Notes under the pieces: generated by a model | The model's input: only the letters and a program-made list of their open reading frames with translations | Told to the model about the DNA's origin: nothing | Database searches by the model: none | IMG/VR virus record: IMGVR_UViG_3300032296_003714 | Location: 43,330-107,329 of that record | DNA: 64,000 nucleotides | Source: a virus | Direction: 5' to 3' (one strand) | Shown here: positions 21,482 through 29,940 of the stretch, piece after piece | How positions within the stretch are numbered: the stretch's first letter is position 1 | How the letters are laid out: the number at the start of each line of letters is the position of its first letter | Translations under genes and position numbers: made by a program

Positions 21482-21970
21482 ATGGCTGATTTATTAATGA
21501 AAATGCCTCTACCTTATGAACCGAAAAGACAAAATCGTTTCATTTTAAGGTTCCCTAGTACACTAGGTATAAATGAGTGGTTTGTAGAGACATCTAAGAG
21601 ACCTAGTATTAAAATCAAAGAAACTGAAATTCCTTTTTTAAATACATCAACATTCGTTGCGGGCAGATTCAACTGGGATGCAATTCCTGTTACATTCAGA
21701 GACCCAATCGGACCTTCTGCAGCTCAAGCTCTTATGGAGTGGGTTCGTTTACATGCTGAGTCTGTTACAGGTCGTATGGGTTATGCTGCGGGTTACAAAA
21801 AAGACATCGACATTGAAATGTTGGACCCGACAGGTGTGGTAGTTGAAAAGTGGATTCTATACGGAACTTTCTTAACGGGAGTAGACTTTGGTGTATTAAA
21901 CTACGCTCAAGACGGACTTTCAACTATAAGTGCAACACTTAGAATGGATAGATGTGTGTTAGTTTACTAA
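21482..21970 (+). CDS. gp19: tail tube protein (gp19-like)
   Basis: A 162-residue tube subunit, the same size as T4 gp19 (163). The N-terminus PYEPKRQNRFILRFPS and the internal KIKETEIPFLN and FNWDAIPVTFRDPIGPSAAQALMEWVRLH are characteristic of tube proteins. The end CVLVY closes the beta barrel. The gene is preceded by a TATTTATA box and followed by a terminator. The tube assembles in register with the sheath at 16901 and is length-controlled by the tape measure at 22969. Confidence 0.93.
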   Translation: MADLLMKMPLPYEPKRQNRFILRFPSTLGINEWFVETSKRPSIKIKETEIPFLNTSTFVAGRFNWDAIPVTFRDPIGPSAAQALMEWVRLHAESVTGRMGYAAGYKKDIDIEMLDPTGVVVEKWILYGTFLTGVDFGVLNYAQDGLSTISATLRMDRCVLVY

Positions 21971-22044: not shown

Positions 22045-22788
22045 ATGGATGAACAATCAAGAATATATGGTCAACAAAATTTGACACTACCACACGATGT
22101 GGTTCCTTTACCATCAGAAGGTGTTTTTTATAAAAACAAGAAAAAATCATTAAAGGTCGGATATTTGACTGCCTCTGACGAAAATATACTTTTGGCTGGT
22201 GGCATGGATATTACAACAAATTTATTAAGAAACAAAATTTACGAACCTGATATTAGGGTTGATGATTTATTGGAAGGTGATGTTGAAGCAATATTAATCT
22301 TCTTGAGAAATACCGCTTTCGGTCCGGAAATGGAGTTAACATTAACAGACCCAAAAACATCCAAAAAGTTTAATGCATCTGTAATGTTAGATTCACTATC
22401 TGTAATTAAAGGGCAAGAGCCATCACCTGATGGAACTTTCACAACCACACTTCCAAAAAGTGAAAGTGTTATTAAATTGAAACCCTTAACGTATGGTGAG
22501 ATTATTGAAATTAACAGAATGGCTGAATCATACCCACAAGGTAGAGTATATCCAAAAGTCACGAATAAATTACAAAAACAAATCGTTGAAATAAATGGTG
22601 TTTCTGATAAAATAGAAATTGCTAAATTTGTGGAACAGATGCCAATTATGGACTCAAAGTTCATTCAAAAATTTATTAATGAAAACGAACCTAAATTGGA
22701 TATGGCTAAATATGTTACAACCCCATCAGGAGAAAAACTACAAGTTAATGTAGGTTTTGGGGTAGACTTTTTTCGCCCTTTCTTCTGA
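22045..22788 (+). CDS. tail assembly chaperone, gp26/T4-type (frame 0 product)
   Basis: A 247-residue protein. It starts MDEQSRIYGQQNL and then shows VPLPSEGVFYKNKKKSLKVGYLTASDENILL, the pattern of the T4 'base plate' gp26-type family. Helical segments ILIFLRNTAFGP and EIIEINRMAESYP follow, and the end is GVDFFRPFF. Such proteins lie just before the tape measure and chaperone its assembly, as G does in lambda. The slip-prone UUUUUUC (22768-22774) near its 3' end may allow a minor fraction of ribosomes to reach the frame of the next feature. Confidence 0.75.
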   Translation: MDEQSRIYGQQNLTLPHDVVPLPSEGVFYKNKKKSLKVGYLTASDENILLAGGMDITTNLLRNKIYEPDIRVDDLLEGDVEAILIFLRNTAFGPEMELTLTDPKTSKKFNASVMLDSLSVIKGQEPSPDGTFTTTLPKSESVIKLKPLTYGEIIEINRMAESYPQGRVYPKVTNKLQKQIVEINGVSDKIEIAKFVEQMPIMDSKFIQKFINENEPKLDMAKYVTTPSGEKLQVNVGFGVDFFRPFF

Positions 22789-22927
22789 GTATAGAAAGGG
22801 GCAAATAGATGAGTTCTATTATCTATCAACTTTATTCCATGTTAGTTGGTCTGATTTTGAAAAAATGCCTCTTTTTGTGAGAAAATATTTGTTAGATAAA
22901 TGGTACGAAGTCAATAAGAAGGACTGA
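22772..22927 (+). CDS. frameshift extension of the tail chaperone (gpGT-like)
   Basis: Frame +1 relative to 22045-22788 is open for 51 codons with TGA at 22925-22927. The previous stop in this frame is at 22762-22764 (TAG), and no ATG, GTG or TTG precedes the conserved-looking part. The only internal ATG is late (22865-22867). Its sequence has FYYLSTLFHVSWSDFEKMPLF, a compact helical segment of the sort seen in tail-chaperone C-termini. Joining by +1 shift at UUU-UUU-C (or -2 on the U run) would give a 293-residue product. No start explains it otherwise. Confidence 0.65.
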   Translation, partial: FALSSEYRKGQIDEFYYLSTLFHVSWSDFEKMPLFVRKYLLDKWYEVNKKD

Positions 22928-22968: not shown

Positions 22969-24930
22969 ATGCCAGGAATCTTTGATGATATAGTAAAACT
23001 TTTTGCACCCCTCGGAGAAGTATTACCAACAGGAGCAAGAGTTGGGGAAATATTCAAAACTGTAATTGGCGGTACAGACGAGATAAATTCTAGGTTTACC
23101 CAAGGTAGACAAAGAGTAACTGAATTTAGTGCGGCAATTGGTGATAGTATTCCGATGGTAGAGCGATTGGGTGGTACTGCAAAAGATGCTGTTGGTGTCA
23201 TTGATGATGTTGCAGCTGCGACAAAAAGAAATGTGGTTGCAAGTGCTGAGGAAGTGTCAAAATTATATTCTGTACAACAATTAACAGGAACAGACGCTAA
23301 AAGACTTGTTGAAACATTCCAAAATGTAGGTATTCAGTTTTCACAAATAAGTGACCATGTAGGTGAATCGATAAAATATATACAAAGTGTTGGTGGTAAT
23401 GCTAGAGATATAATGAGGGAAGTTAATGGGTATGTTGAAAAAATTAACCAATATAATTTTCAGGATGGTGTATTAGGTCTTACTAGAATGGCAACACAAG
23501 CACAGCTATTGAAGTTTGATATGGGTAGTACTTTGGGTTTTGCTGAAAAAGTTATGGACCCCGAAGGCGCAATTAAAATGGCATCTGCCTTTCAAAGACT
23601 TGGAGTTGCTGCTGGAGATTTAACTGACCCATTCCAATTGATGTATAAGTCATTAAATGACCCCGAAGGATTACAAAATAGTATTGTCAACATGACAAAA
23701 CAATTTACCTATTTTGATGAGAAGGCAAATGCTTTCAAAATAAATCCGCAGGGTATGTTAATGTTAAGACAAATAGGTACTGAAGCGGGAATAAGTAGTA
23801 CTGAACTATCTAAGATGGCATTAAATGCTGCAGATTTAGATAAAAAAATCTCACAAATATCACCATCTTTCGATTTCGAAAACGAAGAAGACAAACAATA
23901 TATTGCTAATATTGCTAAGATGGGTAAAGGTGGTGAATATGAAATAACTGTTAAAGATGAAAAAACGGGAAAAGATAAGACTATCCTTTTACAAGAAGCA
24001 ACAAATGAACAATTACAAGAATTAATAGATAGGCAAAAGGAAGGTAGAGAAGACCAAACAGTAGAAGATATACAAAAATTACAAATAGATGCTTTGAGTG
24101 CTGTTGTTAATGAATTGAAAGCGACAAGGGATGAATATATTGCAGGTGCTGCATCATCTAGAGAACTTACAAAAGCTCTAAACGGAATGGAACTCAGACT
24201 TTCGGCTTTGAATGCAATACAAGAATTTAAAGAAAAAAAAGGGATTGATAAAACAACAACAACAACTATTAGAGATGAGGTAGATAAAAATGTACCTCTT
24301 GTCATGAAGATGATTACGGACTTTTTTACTCAGGATAAAGAAAAGATGAAAGAAGATTTAAAAGTTCTTATTGAGCAGATAAAAGTTTTTAGTAAAGAAT
24401 CTTTGAAAGAAGTTGCGGAAGGAATTAAAAAGGCTTTGGAAATTTTAAAGGATAAGGCTCAGGGTAAGGCTTCAGGTGGATATGTCTATGGTAAAGGGAC
24501 ACAAACCTCAGATTCAATACCTACTTTATTAAGTAATGGTGAGTTTGTTGTTAACGCAGCGTCAACAGCTGCTTTTGGACCACTATTAGAAACTATCAAC
24601 GAAAACCCTAACTATGATTTGAAACCGTTTGCAAATCAAGGATTGGAGCTCAAAAACACCAACGATATTGCAGCTTCAACCATAACCAACAGAAGTATAA
24701 CGGAACAAATATCCAATTTGAACACATCTACATCTAATACTGAAACAAAAACGAGTAAAATTGAATTTGGAGAAATTTCACCGCTTAAAGTGATTTTTGA
24801 AAAAGGACCAGGATTTTCAGACAGTGATATGGCAATGCTCGAATATAATCTTGGTAAGAGTAATATTACAGAACAACTAACTAAGAGCATATCGGAAAAA
24901 CTAAAGGTTTTACAAGTTAAAGAGGCATAA
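22969..24930 (+). CDS. tail tape measure protein (gp29-like)
   Basis: A 653-residue protein located after the tail chaperone, the invariant position of tape measures. The N-terminal half is helical with repeated heptad-like segments (GGTAKDAVGVIDDVAAAT, VNGYVEKINQY). The middle (LQELIDRQKEG, TRDEYIAGAASSREL) is long alpha helix. The C-terminal region has the typical glycine-rich GGYVYGKGTQTSDSIPT and LLSNGEFVVNAAS motif. T4 gp29 has 590 residues, so the tail should be similar or a little longer, about 100 nm if the usual residue-to-length rule holds. No membrane span is evident. Confidence 0.85.
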   Translation: MPGIFDDIVKLFAPLGEVLPTGARVGEIFKTVIGGTDEINSRFTQGRQRVTEFSAAIGDSIPMVERLGGTAKDAVGVIDDVAAATKRNVVASAEEVSKLYSVQQLTGTDAKRLVETFQNVGIQFSQISDHVGESIKYIQSVGGNARDIMREVNGYVEKINQYNFQDGVLGLTRMATQAQLLKFDMGSTLGFAEKVMDPEGAIKMASAFQRLGVAAGDLTDPFQLMYKSLNDPEGLQNSIVNMTKQFTYFDEKANAFKINPQGMLMLRQIGTEAGISSTELSKMALNAADLDKKISQISPSFDFENEEDKQYIANIAKMGKGGEYEITVKDEKTGKDKTILLQEATNEQLQELIDRQKEGREDQTVEDIQKLQIDALSAVVNELKATRDEYIAGAASSRELTKALNGMELRLSALNAIQEFKEKKGIDKTTTTTIRDEVDKNVPLVMKMITDFFTQDKEKMKEDLKVLIEQIKVFSKESLKEVAEGIKKALEILKDKAQGKASGGYVYGKGTQTSDSIPTLLSNGEFVVNAASTAAFGPLLETINENPNYDLKPFANQGLELKNTNDIAASTITNRSITEQISNLNTSTSNTETKTSKIEFGEISPLKVIFEKGPGFSDSDMAMLEYNLGKSNITEQLTKSISEKLKVLQVKEA

Positions 24931-24969: not shown

Positions 24970-27900
24970 ATGGCAAGTCCATTACTAGTCACATCAGAGG
25001 TTTTTAGAAAGAAAATTCTTGTTAAAAATTTGACCCCTTATAACAAGTCGCCTAGGAAAATTGTGCCTCCTGTAGACTACCCTACAAATATATCTGATTT
25101 AGCGGTTAAAGATTCCCCTGACGATTTAATTGACACACCAATCTTTGCGAAAGAACTTTATACTAAAAACCAATATGGTGCTGAGGGAGGTTATAAACAA
25201 GTGCCTGACCCAGGAGCTTTGCTTAATACTAAATCTAATGAAGGCGAGTATGGACCAGGCCAACAAGATGCTAAAATTTTAGACCAAGGATTTTCTGAAT
25301 CAAAAAAATGGAAACCATTAAACGCTTATGCTAACGGACCAACAGTTGTCGACTCAGCAGAAGCATTTTCAACTTTAGACATTGTTTATCCAAACGGAGG
25401 CAGAACCCCAAACGGTCAACCATACCCAACAACATTTAACCCTTCATCATATAGTCCTGTATCAATATTACTAACATCTGACCCACAGGGTAGTAATGGT
25501 TTGTTGAGTGCTGACTCGTATATTGCTAGATTAGGTGCCACAGTATTAAGAAAAGAATTTGAAACTAGAATTGGTAATGAGATTAGACAAAACACAATTG
25601 CACGAGCAAACATATTCAATGTTAGAAGTGGTACCGACCTATTGAACATTGTTACAGGTAGAGTTCCTTTGATACAGCCTGATTATAGAATTACAGTACC
25701 TGCAAATCCTATATTAGCGGCAACTGATTTTGCTTTAAGGTTGGCTGGTAGTATATTACCCGTATCACCTATTGTTGGTTCATATTGGGATACTAGCATT
25801 AATTCAGGGCAACCAACAACAATACAACAATTAACAAATGCTTTCAAAAGGAGCGGAACAGGTAAGTTCTTCTCAAGGGTACTTGGTTTTAACAAAACAG
25901 GCTCACAACTTTTTTTGAATAACACAGGTGGAGGACAAAAATCAAGATTATTTGATAACCTTGACTATAACAAATACAAACCAAACTATACAAGAACTAT
26001 ATTAGATAGACTCGGTGGCGCAATAGTAGGAACAACATCAACTGTTAGTAACTATTATATTGGTTCAATAACATCAGACCCATCAAGAATACTTTCTCCT
26101 GGTGGTGATGTCCCTGTGGATAGTTTCGCTAGAGAAGTTAGTACACCTGTATATGGACCAACCGAGTTGGCTCAACTATACGAAGGACCTTCAAGAAGTA
26201 GTAGATTAGGTGCTAACGGACCATCATATGGTAATGGTGGTGGTGTTGAAGGTGGATTTACTTGGGTCTCACCAAAATATAAAGGAAATGCGGGTAAGAA
26301 AGTCGGTATTGGTGGAGAAATTATACAACAAGACGAAGACTTTAAACCCTCTTCATATAACTCAACTGAATCTACAAATTCAGAATTTAGAGACGGTTCA
26401 ATACTTGATGACACACAAAGATTGATTGATAGTCAACCATCTGGAGGTAGAAGACTACAACATGTGGGAAATGCTATAGACCAAGTAAGTAAAGTTTTCC
26501 ATGATGGATATAAAGAAATAACTAAAGGTTCACAGGTTATAAAATACACAGGTGCAATAGGACAAGAGGTTGGTTATGAATACTGTAGAGTTTTTACTAA
26601 AGACGTACCATACCTCCAATACAATGATTTACAAAAAGTTGATGGTATCACGACCTCAGGTAGAAAAATATCATATTCAGTGTTGGATAATACATACAAT
26701 CTAAACATATTTCCAAATAAAAAAGATAGTGCTGGTAATTCGACTAATTTAGTCGGTGACAATGAGAACACTTATTATGCTAAGAAATATATGTTTTCTT
26801 TGGAAAATTTGGCGTGGAGAACATCAAGTACACCTGGATATACTGTATCAGATTTGCCTGTTTGTGAGAGAGGACCTAATGGTGGTAGGGTAATGTGGTT
26901 TCCACCTTACGACCTAAAGTTTTCAGAAACTAATACCGCTTCATGGAAAGATTCCTCTTTCATAGGAAGACCCGAACCAGTCTATACTTATTCAAACACA
27001 AGAAGAACAGGTTCACTGTCTTGGAAAATTGTTGTAGACCATCCATCAGTTCTAAATCTGATTGTAAATAAAGTTCTAAATAATGAAACAAACAATTCAA
27101 GAATTGATAATATGATTAATTCTTTCTTTGCGGGTTGTTTAAAATATGACTTATATGAGTTGGCGGAAAAATATCCGTTGGCGAATCCCAATGAGTTATA
27201 TAATATCCAAAGAGAACTTGATGCTGGTAAATTAAGTAAAGAACAAGTACAAACAGTAAAGAATACTTTGACAACTGGTAATGAATCACCAACAGGTCAA
27301 GAAATGAGTGTTAAAAGTAATGTTGATTTAAATACAAATAATATTCAAACAGCGTTAACAGGTATAGGTTTTTATTTTGAAAATGAAGAACCTGATAATA
27401 GTTCATCATCGTTTTCATCTTTATACGATACATATATTTTAAGAAAACCTGTAATTATTGACCAGTCCCCAACAGTTACAGACCCATATAATAGTGGACC
27501 ACAACAGGTATCGACATTTTTCAATAATGTTGTTCAGTGGAATTACGAACAGTTCAATAAAAATTTGACTGACATATACAATGGATTTAATAGTGGTAAT
27601 ATAGAAAAGGTCATATTTAATTTAGCAGGAACCACAAGTAGTTCAACTAATAGACAATATAACAATAGAGTTAACTCAAACAGGATAGAATCTATTAAAA
27701 CGTATATTAAAAATTATAAACCTGGAGGAGCCCAAAAAACTTTGGGTCAAATTTCCGAAAGCAGAATAACTTATGTTACGGCAGCTTCAGAATCTTCAGT
27801 AAGAACAAAATCAAGTTCGGGATACGGAGAGTCTTATAATTGTGGTGAAAAAGATACAAAAAAAACAGACTCAACTAATGTGAATACGGTAAACGCGATG

Positions 27901-29940
27901 GCGTGTAGAAGGATTGTGATATCATCAATAAATGTTCAACAAAAAACACCTGTTGCTCAAAATCCGGCAAATTCTAACCAACCAATAGTTACCTCTCAAA
28001 ATGGAACCACTAATGTTGTACAGAATACAAATTCCAATAGAAGTCTACCAACAAAGAACCTTTCAAAAAAAGTCTTAAGGTTGTTGTTGTCTGAGTGTGA
28101 TTACTTTGAAAGTATTAAGGAGTATACACCAATGGTTTATGATAACCTTAAAGAAAAATTAAAATTTTTCAATCCCGCATTCCACTCAACAACCCCAGAA
28201 GGGCTAAACTCAAGATTAACTTTTTTAAATCAATGTTTAAGGCCTGGTGAAACTATACCAGTTGTTAAAAGTGTTAATGGGAAGGAAACATTACAATATA
28301 ACAATTCGGTAAATACCGCATTTGGTGCACCTCCTGTTTTAGTTTTGAGAGTTGGTGATTTTTATAATACAAAAATAATACCCGACAATTTGGCAATAAC
28401 ATATGAAGGATTGGATTTGAACCCTGAAGGTATTGGTGTACAACCCATGATTGCCAATATCACATTGAGCTTCAAGTTTGTCGGAGGTAGCGGAATAAAA
28501 GACGCTGTGGACAGATTACAAAACGCTCTTTCATTCAACTACTATGCAAATACTGAAGTTTATGATGATAGGGCAGATGTTACTGATAAGAGTTTAGAAG
28601 ATTTAGATACTCTGTTTGCTTCAATATATAATCCAACACAACCACCACCAACAACAAATGAGGTTCAAAATAATGACGGTCAGAAGAACGGAGGAACCAT
28701 CGGAGAAGTTTTATCAACTACAACAACAGAATCAGGAACTACAGGACAAATATCATACACCAAGTTTTTCTCTACTTTGTCTGATAAAACACAAGAATAT
28801 TTCAGAAATGTTTTAAATAAAAATAAAGAAGTTTTATCACAATATAATGAAGGGGTTAGACAAATGTTCACCTTCACAAGAAATTATACAAAGGGTCAGA
28901 TACTAGGTTTAGGTAATGCGGAATATGGGTATATTTTTGGAAAACCCGCAAATTACCAATCTAACATGGATAGTGTTTTTTCTGGTTTGTTATCAGATAT
29001 ACAACAAGATGACGATGAATTTATAGATTTTATGTCTAAAAAAGGATTTTCAAATAAAGCTATGAGGGCGTTAAAGACTAATTATAAAAATTATGTAAGT
29101 CAAAAACAATCAACTTATTTGAATGCTCTAAGTAAAACAATACAAGATTTTACACTATTACAACAAAACTATGTTATGGAAATTGCTAAATTAAATGCAA
29201 TAACATTTGGTAGAGTCGTGGGTCTTAATACTAAAGTTTCAGGAACTGACGGTTATCAAGAGAAAAATAATAATACTGTTACTTATTTTACAACTGGGGA
29301 CTCATTTTCAAATCTTACTAAAGACGGGGTTACACTTAGAACTTCATTAGGTCAATTTGCAATTGAGTGTGAAAAAACAATTTCTTTTGGAAAAGAAAAC
29401 TATAGAAATCAATTAGTCAGACCGAACAATGAAAAATTCGTTAAAGACAACATTTTCAAACAAGTAAGTGGTAATGGGAAGTTCGCTAGTGCAAATTTCC
29501 AAAGAGAGTATGTAATATTGAGTAATGAAGTTGTTGATATAAACAAATATAGTGCATTCAAAAGTTTTTTAATTAATGATATATTGAATACAAAATCACT
29601 TATGGAAAATGGAAATACTAATATAAGCGAAATGTTTGATGAATATTGGACTGGTCAAGTAAGACCAATTTTTGAAAAAGAAAACAAAGCGGCTTTAGAA
29701 TTTCTTGATTATTTAGAAACCAATACACTTAAAGATTATATTAACTATACTGCTTTAAAGGGACAGAGTGACAAAACTCTTTTCTATAGTAATCAACAAG
29801 ACGCTAATGAAGACTCTCTGAAAAATAAAAGAAAAGATGTTATTAATTCATTAGGAAAGTCAAGTAATAGTAATACAATTAAAAGTACTTTTAACGACGT
29901 GGAAGGTTCGATAAACATAACTAAAGTGAAACTAAACTAA
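24970..29940 (+). CDS. giant baseplate-associated protein, 1656 residues
   Basis: The largest visible unit is around residues 595-715: FSLENLAWRTSSTPG, GRVMWFPPYDLKFSE, IGRPEPVYTYSNTRRTG and SLSWKIVVDHPSVL, followed by a helical NKVLNNETNNSR segment. I associate this core with baseplate/hub proteins encoded near gp53/gp27-type genes, but the function is not proven. Linkers rich in Ser/Thr/Asn (DNSSSSFSS, STTTTESGTTG) separate domains, and the C-terminal 300 residues are helical. Its stop overlaps the next ATG by 1 nt. Together with the 2257-residue protein downstream, it probably forms the central baseplate. Confidence 0.6.
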   Translation: MASPLLVTSEVFRKKILVKNLTPYNKSPRKIVPPVDYPTNISDLAVKDSPDDLIDTPIFAKELYTKNQYGAEGGYKQVPDPGALLNTKSNEGEYGPGQQDAKILDQGFSESKKWKPLNAYANGPTVVDSAEAFSTLDIVYPNGGRTPNGQPYPTTFNPSSYSPVSILLTSDPQGSNGLLSADSYIARLGATVLRKEFETRIGNEIRQNTIARANIFNVRSGTDLLNIVTGRVPLIQPDYRITVPANPILAATDFALRLAGSILPVSPIVGSYWDTSINSGQPTTIQQLTNAFKRSGTGKFFSRVLGFNKTGSQLFLNNTGGGQKSRLFDNLDYNKYKPNYTRTILDRLGGAIVGTTSTVSNYYIGSITSDPSRILSPGGDVPVDSFAREVSTPVYGPTELAQLYEGPSRSSRLGANGPSYGNGGGVEGGFTWVSPKYKGNAGKKVGIGGEIIQQDEDFKPSSYNSTESTNSEFRDGSILDDTQRLIDSQPSGGRRLQHVGNAIDQVSKVFHDGYKEITKGSQVIKYTGAIGQEVGYEYCRVFTKDVPYLQYNDLQKVDGITTSGRKISYSVLDNTYNLNIFPNKKDSAGNSTNLVGDNENTYYAKKYMFSLENLAWRTSSTPGYTVSDLPVCERGPNGGRVMWFPPYDLKFSETNTASWKDSSFIGRPEPVYTYSNTRRTGSLSWKIVVDHPSVLNLIVNKVLNNETNNSRIDNMINSFFAGCLKYDLYELAEKYPLANPNELYNIQRELDAGKLSKEQVQTVKNTLTTGNESPTGQEMSVKSNVDLNTNNIQTALTGIGFYFENEEPDNSSSSFSSLYDTYILRKPVIIDQSPTVTDPYNSGPQQVSTFFNNVVQWNYEQFNKNLTDIYNGFNSGNIEKVIFNLAGTTSSSTNRQYNNRVNSNRIESIKTYIKNYKPGGAQKTLGQISESRITYVTAASESSVRTKSSSGYGESYNCGEKDTKKTDSTNVNTVNAMACRRIVISSINVQQKTPVAQNPANSNQPIVTSQNGTTNVVQNTNSNRSLPTKNLSKKVLRLLLSECDYFESIKEYTPMVYDNLKEKLKFFNPAFHSTTPEGLNSRLTFLNQCLRPGETIPVVKSVNGKETLQYNNSVNTAFGAPPVLVLRVGDFYNTKIIPDNLAITYEGLDLNPEGIGVQPMIANITLSFKFVGGSGIKDAVDRLQNALSFNYYANTEVYDDRADVTDKSLEDLDTLFASIYNPTQPPPTTNEVQNNDGQKNGGTIGEVLSTTTTESGTTGQISYTKFFSTLSDKTQEYFRNVLNKNKEVLSQYNEGVRQMFTFTRNYTKGQILGLGNAEYGYIFGKPANYQSNMDSVFSGLLSDIQQDDDEFIDFMSKKGFSNKAMRALKTNYKNYVSQKQSTYLNALSKTIQDFTLLQQNYVMEIAKLNAITFGRVVGLNTKVSGTDGYQEKNNNTVTYFTTGDSFSNLTKDGVTLRTSLGQFAIECEKTISFGKENYRNQLVRPNNEKFVKDNIFKQVSGNGKFASANFQREYVILSNEVVDINKYSAFKSFLINDILNTKSLMENGNTNISEMFDEYWTGQVRPIFEKENKAALEFLDYLETNTLKDYINYTALKGQSDKTLFYSNQQDANEDSLKNKRKDVINSLGKSSNSNTIKSTFNDVEGSINITKVKLN

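Follow-up and report, generated by a model that had tools for sequence, protein, structure and literature searches.

We describe a virus gene for a predicted tail assembly chaperone of the T4 type in which a programmed +1 frameshift, at a UUU codon followed by the rare arginine codon CGC, very probably (at roughly 0.9 by our estimate) gives rise to a long form of the protein in addition to the short one. The gene lies within a window of 64,000 nucleotides, the whole stretch of DNA analyzed here, which is a piece of a 107,329-base IMG/VR virus contig. The argument draws on sequence comparison and combines the conservation of the extension and of the shift site, the rarity of the codon that waits at this site, the position of the gene, and its family membership. 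The system is of a known kind; its polarity and its site are unusual for the T4-type chaperone family.

The gene starts with an ATG at 22045 and stops with a TGA at 22786-22788, and its product terminates in ...GVDFFRPFF (Table 1). The +1 frame contains a TAG at 22762-22764 and is then open up to a TGA at 22925-22927, with the junction GAC TTT TTT CGC at 22765-22776; the original prediction had placed all these elements correctly. When TTTC is read as one step, translation of the window yields an unbroken fusion of 293 amino acids with the junction peptide VDFFALSSEYR; the +1 junction peptide expected for phage immuto is GVSFFGLTPEYR. The -1 frame of the window gene closes about six codons past the stop, and the gene has no long -1 frame with a canonical -1 heptamer. 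The 247-aa ORF matches the Pfam family PF12322 (T4_baseplate; T4 base plate protein) with E=1.3e-7 and 31.9 bits, which exceeds the curated cut-off of 24.5 bits, and, in a PHROG profile search, phrog_150 (baseplate hub) with E=2.1e-14. The location between the genes for the tail tube and the tape measure is the usual place of a tail assembly chaperone, and the product is assigned this predicted function by homology and gene position only. For the large ORF of 1656 aa on the 3' side of the tape measure gene (24970-29940), no PHROG profile gave a significant match.

Table 1. Positions of the chaperone gene, its neighbors and the proposed frameshifting elements in the window
Feature	Position	Strand	Basis
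Tail tube protein, directly 5' of the chaperone gene	21482..21970	+	phrog_4542, E=4.5e-24
Short form, predicted tail assembly chaperone (PF12322/phrog_150, T4 gp26/gp51 family), 247 aa	22045..22788	+	Pfam, PHROG, AF2/Foldseek
Candidate upstream RNA helix, ACCCCA 22720-22725 with UGGGGU 22758-22763	22720..22763	+	Pairing, compensatory change
Possible second RNA helix (tentative), UCAGGAGAAA 22726-22735 with UUUCUUCUGA 22779-22788	22726..22788	+	Pairing
Predicted shift site, TTT TTT CGC	22768..22776	+	TTT-Y conservation, CGC rarity, TTT synonymously invariant
Predicted +1-frame extension, 50 aa past the slip and TGA (long form, 293 aa)	22775..22927	+	dN/dS, no stops, AF2
Alternative downstream RNA hairpin from the A-site codon (tentative)	22775..22802	+	RNAalifold consensus only
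Tail tape measure protein, directly 3' of the chaperone gene	22969..24930	+	phrog_25241, E=8.2e-18

The core and the extension were modelled separately, with the rows from the phages collection left out of the input. In Foldseek searches, the AF2 model of the core (pLDDT 85.6) matches the baseplate hub protein of phage SP-15 (E=2.4e-16) and gp26 of Aeromonas phage 25 (E=2.1e-5); as modelled, the core shares the fold of PF12322/phrog_150 family members, the matches being T4-type baseplate hub proteins. Among the 50 PDB matches listed, the top probability, that of the HK97 chaperone gp13 (2ob9), is just 0.35 with E=2.1, which is not significant. The extension is predicted by AF2 to consist of three helices (7-24, 28-33 and 36-50; mean pLDDT 89.4), and a Foldseek search with this model gave no significant match. 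Searches of PHROG and Pfam with the extension alone matched no family.

The +1 extension is open in all 183 assessable loci, the window included, and every one of these loci has UUU-Y (UUU-C or UUU-U) at the junction. The core of this set is formed by 80 relatives with 71-90% identity, all of which have the same junction and a +1 frame open to residue 291 or 293; more divergent relative sets were added to these to reach the 183 loci, which reduce to about 50 once near-duplicates are removed, and outside the 183 are two loci with a split arrangement (see below) and loci cut by a contig end. Among 31 non-redundant window-clade genes, the dN/dS is 0.085 for the extension and 0.123 for the core, compared with 0.97 and 1.5 for the same extension DNA read in the other two frames, which shows purifying selection on the extension, a point for which a dN/dS test had been suggested. 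Stops in the extension DNA number 0 per sequence in the +1 frame versus 4.7 and 6.2 in the other frames. With stretches of 43-45 open +1 codons past the stop in two other window ORFs, an open +1 tail of such length is not significant on its own; it is the conservation in 183 of 183 loci, together with the dN/dS, that lifts the extension above chance. The extension is also carried by isolated phages, namely, immuto (Flavobacterium), Mel-JY01 (Microcystis), SP-15 (Bacillus), LIS04 (Listeria), GXN1 (Streptococcus) and RM378 (Rhodothermus), which excludes an assembly indel. The fusion is annotated in none of these six isolate records; in several of them, part of the extension figures as a small hypothetical gene. 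Searching the phages collection with DNA in distant mode gave no match, and a single scan of the genome collection with one query identified one relative, within a MAG, and thus gave no evidence of cellular homologues. In one subgroup of loci (L011-L021), the usual 0-frame stop is lost by a T-to-G change and the short form ends two codons later, after FFGL; the extension is unaltered despite the loss of this stop.

The junctions in the window clade have the form TTT TTT CGY or TTC TTT CGY, and those in the immuto clade TTT CTT/CTA TGG, TTT TTT TGG or TTC TTT TGG, such that the only re-pairing possible in every +1 member is that from UUU to UUC or UUU. A +1 slip from UUU to UUC had been predicted at exactly this site, in agreement with the ubiquitous UUU-Y and the constraint on the extension. 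Alignment of homologues had been suggested as a check on both the +1 frame and the run of six U's: the frame is conserved throughout, whereas the run is not. The waiting A-site codon is CGC or CGT in every window-clade locus. As suspected from the AT-rich composition, CGC is rare in the contig, accounting for 3 of the 33,995 codons including the one at the shift site, and AGA and AGG together make up 1,052 of the 1,130 Arg codons (93%). ARAGORN found no phage tRNA genes in the window or in the rest of the contig. Given its computed rarity, CGC would probably be slow in the A site, with a low supply of the respective tRNA presumed in the host. In the window clade, most of the codons just 5' of codon 243 vary synonymously at normal rates, and TTT 243, CCT 245 and TTC 246-247 show zero synonymous variation; in the immuto clade, the strongest constraint on any seven consecutive codons of the gene falls on codons 239-245, with an observed/expected ratio of 0.10. 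The invariance of the shift codons is partly forced by dual coding and by itself does not prove the position of the slip.

Under the mechanism that we propose, most ribosomes probably terminate at the TGA of the short form, and some would pause with peptidyl-tRNA-Phe on the P-site UUU at 22771-22773 and CGC waiting in the A site. The tRNA-Phe would then slip one base, onto UUC at 22772-22774, and translation would run on to 22927, yielding the long form with a helical C-terminal domain. The slip itself, as well as its efficiency, we infer from the sequence features outlined above.

Slippage of another tRNA in the +1 direction, either at CUU-U in the immuto clade, in a manner resembling prfB, or at the CCU codon, appears improbable. 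CCU is invariant in most of the +1 relatives, and CUU-UGG does look like the prfB site; however, there is no CUU in the window clade and some relatives have CUA instead, tRNA-Pro re-pairs poorly from CCU to CUN, and UUU-Y is the sole good re-pairing that is common to all. Less probable still is the possibility that the extension is an independent small protein initiated at an internal ATG, TTG or GTG of the +1 frame. The relatives lend some substance to this idea: an ATG preceded by a conserved AGGAG is located eight codons 5' of the slip codon in 47 of the 81 window-clade loci, and 49 of the 81 have a +1-frame ATG at or before slip+8; moreover, a CDS covering part of the extension is annotated in Mel-JY01 (from a TTG), in immuto and SP-15 (from internal ATGs) and in RM378 (from a GTG), and the two split loci do encode the extension in a gene with its own ATG. 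In the window, however, the shared ATG runs straight into the TAG, and this pair apart, there is, as originally noted, no usable +1 start before the protein-like sequence: the next ATG, GTG or TTG lies 31 codons past the slip, within the conserved domain. Furthermore, 32 of the 81 window-clade loci lack an ATG at or before slip+8 and all have the extension, and the +1 frame can vary freely 5' of the slip codon. In the relatives, though not in the window, internal initiation could contribute some additional product.

A -2 slip along the six U's would reach the same frame and had initially been offered as an alternative to the +1 slip; the window does have the UUUUUU run, and Mu-type chaperone genes are known to use -2 shifts. 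We nevertheless consider it even less likely than internal initiation: at least eight window-clade relatives have TTC TTT C instead of TTT TTT C, and neither UUC UUU C nor the UUU CUU/CUA UGG sites permit -2 re-pairing although the extension is retained, whereas +1 re-pairing at UUU-Y is present in all. Finally, the probability that the extension is a chance open frame, a pseudogene or a sequencing error is negligible because, for all the comparable open +1 tails of other window ORFs, this explanation is refuted by the universal conservation, the low dN/dS, and the recurrence of the extension in independent isolates and assemblies.

The region surrounding the site of the proposed +1 slip contains candidate RNA elements that might stimulate the shift. 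The putative upstream helix, just 5' of the shift site, is paired in 98% of the cells over 26 sequences, with a compensatory change in one pair, and codons 226, 228, 229 and 239 show no synonymous variation in the window clade even though they are located 5' of the shift. The possible second helix, between UCAGGAGAAA and UUUCUUCUGA, is likewise paired in 98% of the cells and is nearly invariant, with little covariation; the two helices together would, tentatively, make an H-type pseudoknot around the shift site. The alternative downstream hairpin and the second helix compete for the same bases, and because of this competition and the lack of covariation, we claim neither the pseudoknot nor the hairpin. 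A Shine-Dalgarno sequence about 3 nt 5' of the slip codon is absent in the window, where 8 nt separate the end of a GGGG from the P-site UUU and an AGGAG is found about 40 nt 5' of it. Both clades have synonymously frozen AGGAG-like motifs some 27-40 nt 5' of the shift site, at 22726-22735 in the window and, for the immuto clade, as GGA GGG at codons 229-230; this distance is too great for the usual Shine-Dalgarno stimulator.

Several relatives show other arrangements of the same parts. In two divergent contigs that lack UUU-Y and have the site codons TTC TTG TAT or TTC CTT TGG (L098, 1501-3696, also L193; L104, 1501-2505, also L194), the extension forms a separate gene that begins with an ATG right after the stop (MENIDNLL..., MNIDRFL...). 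These two split loci appear to use their own start, and the fact that the loci without UUU-Y have a separate ATG gene counts in favor of the +1 slip at UUU-Y. All 8 loci of the clade of Xanthomonas phage XacN1 combine a -1-frame extension with the heptamer U-UUU-UUU, and the -1 extension of Atu_ph07 and PA5oct goes with U-UUU-UUC (the -1 group consists of L088, L215-L221, L230 and L231); the -1 extensions of the relatives of XacN1, Atu_ph07 and PA5oct are unannotated. The +1 and -1 extensions are related by sequence, with an hhalign score of 40.2 versus a shuffled maximum of 17.5. A 595-kb phage (L087, LR756511.1) has a long -1-frame extension, and in L190 and L191, CCC-A might serve as the slip codon for a +1 extension.

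As a tentative evolutionary scenario, to which we give somewhat less than even odds, frameshifting, mostly of the +1 type at UUU before a slow codon and, in the window clade, with an RNA fold wrapping the site, could be ancestral in T4-type chaperones, with different lineages having replaced it by a -1 shift, by a separate ATG gene, or by the duplication that produced T4 gp26 and gp51. The T4-type chaperone family reaches the same pair of products by +1, -1, split-gene and two-gene routes, and the presence of four routes in one family makes the gain, flip or loss of frameshifting directly testable. The position of UUU before a nearly absent Arg codon makes the site simple to assay. The +1 sites on a sense codon are seldom caught by prediction tools; PRFect, for instance, predicted none of the 481 forward shifts of the RECODE set (PMC10885494). 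Re-annotation is needed for immuto, SP-15, PA5oct, XacN1 and RM378, among the isolates.

In one review, T4 is treated as the exception to the general use of frameshifting for the tail chaperones of long-tailed phages (PMC5009743), and a review of T4 lists gp26 and gp51 as hub assembly chaperones (PMC3004832). According to Vladimirov, Gautam & Davidson 2022, as represented in the papers that cite this work (PMC10885494, PMC12846349), T4-like phages have two chaperone genes, one short and one long (via PMC10885494). Separately, PMC12846349 mentions poly-T signals for a -1 shift in T4-like chaperones. Since the T4 short/long pair is already published, what may be new is the widespread +1 form rather than the equivalence with T4. 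T4 gp26 covers positions 14-235 of phrog_150 and gp51 covers positions 13-280, both being PF12322 proteins, which suggests gp26 as the counterpart of the short form and gp51 as that of the core with the extension. For the +1 extension, the similarity to the C-terminus of gp51 is modest (hhalign score 19.8 versus a shuffled maximum of 19.3), and for the -1 extension it is clearer (25.0 versus 16.0), with all 150 column-shuffled controls scoring lower; the full-length alignment is collinear. The original prediction had set T4 apart as a system with separate genes, gp26 and gp51; the genes are indeed separate, but the contrast is not a simple one, as gp26 and gp51 are paralogues within the family of the window gene and gp51 carries a C-terminal extension. 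In T4, each of the two lengths has a gene of its own, the two being paralogues, whereas the window would make both lengths from one gene with a shift site, located between the tube and the tape measure.

Like lambda gpG/gpGT and other frameshifted tail assembly chaperones, reportedly described by Xu and colleagues in 2004, the window gene is located 5' of the tape measure gene and is predicted to produce a short and a C-terminally extended form by a shift near its 3' end; unlike the -1 slip of lambda, the shift in the window would be +1, and no sequence similarity was detected between the lambda gpG/gpGT family and the window chaperone family. By analogy with lambda, the role of the short form would be to coat the tape measure protein, and that of the extension to recruit the tail tube protein. 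As in prfB (RF2) and in the +1 shift of Listeria phage PSA, the P-site tRNA would shift its pairing forward by one base during a delay at a slow A-site codon. The prfB site is CUU-UGA with a Shine-Dalgarno sequence 3 nt upstream, and the PSA shift involves proline codons; the window differs from both in having UUU-CGY, with a rare sense codon, no Shine-Dalgarno sequence at 3 nt, and the stop several codons after the shift. The conserved shift, the unannotated extension and the occurrence in large myoviruses are shared with the Vandenendeviridae (phage Adele, PMC12846349), in which, unlike the +1 shift predicted here, a -1 shift occurs at GTTTTT.
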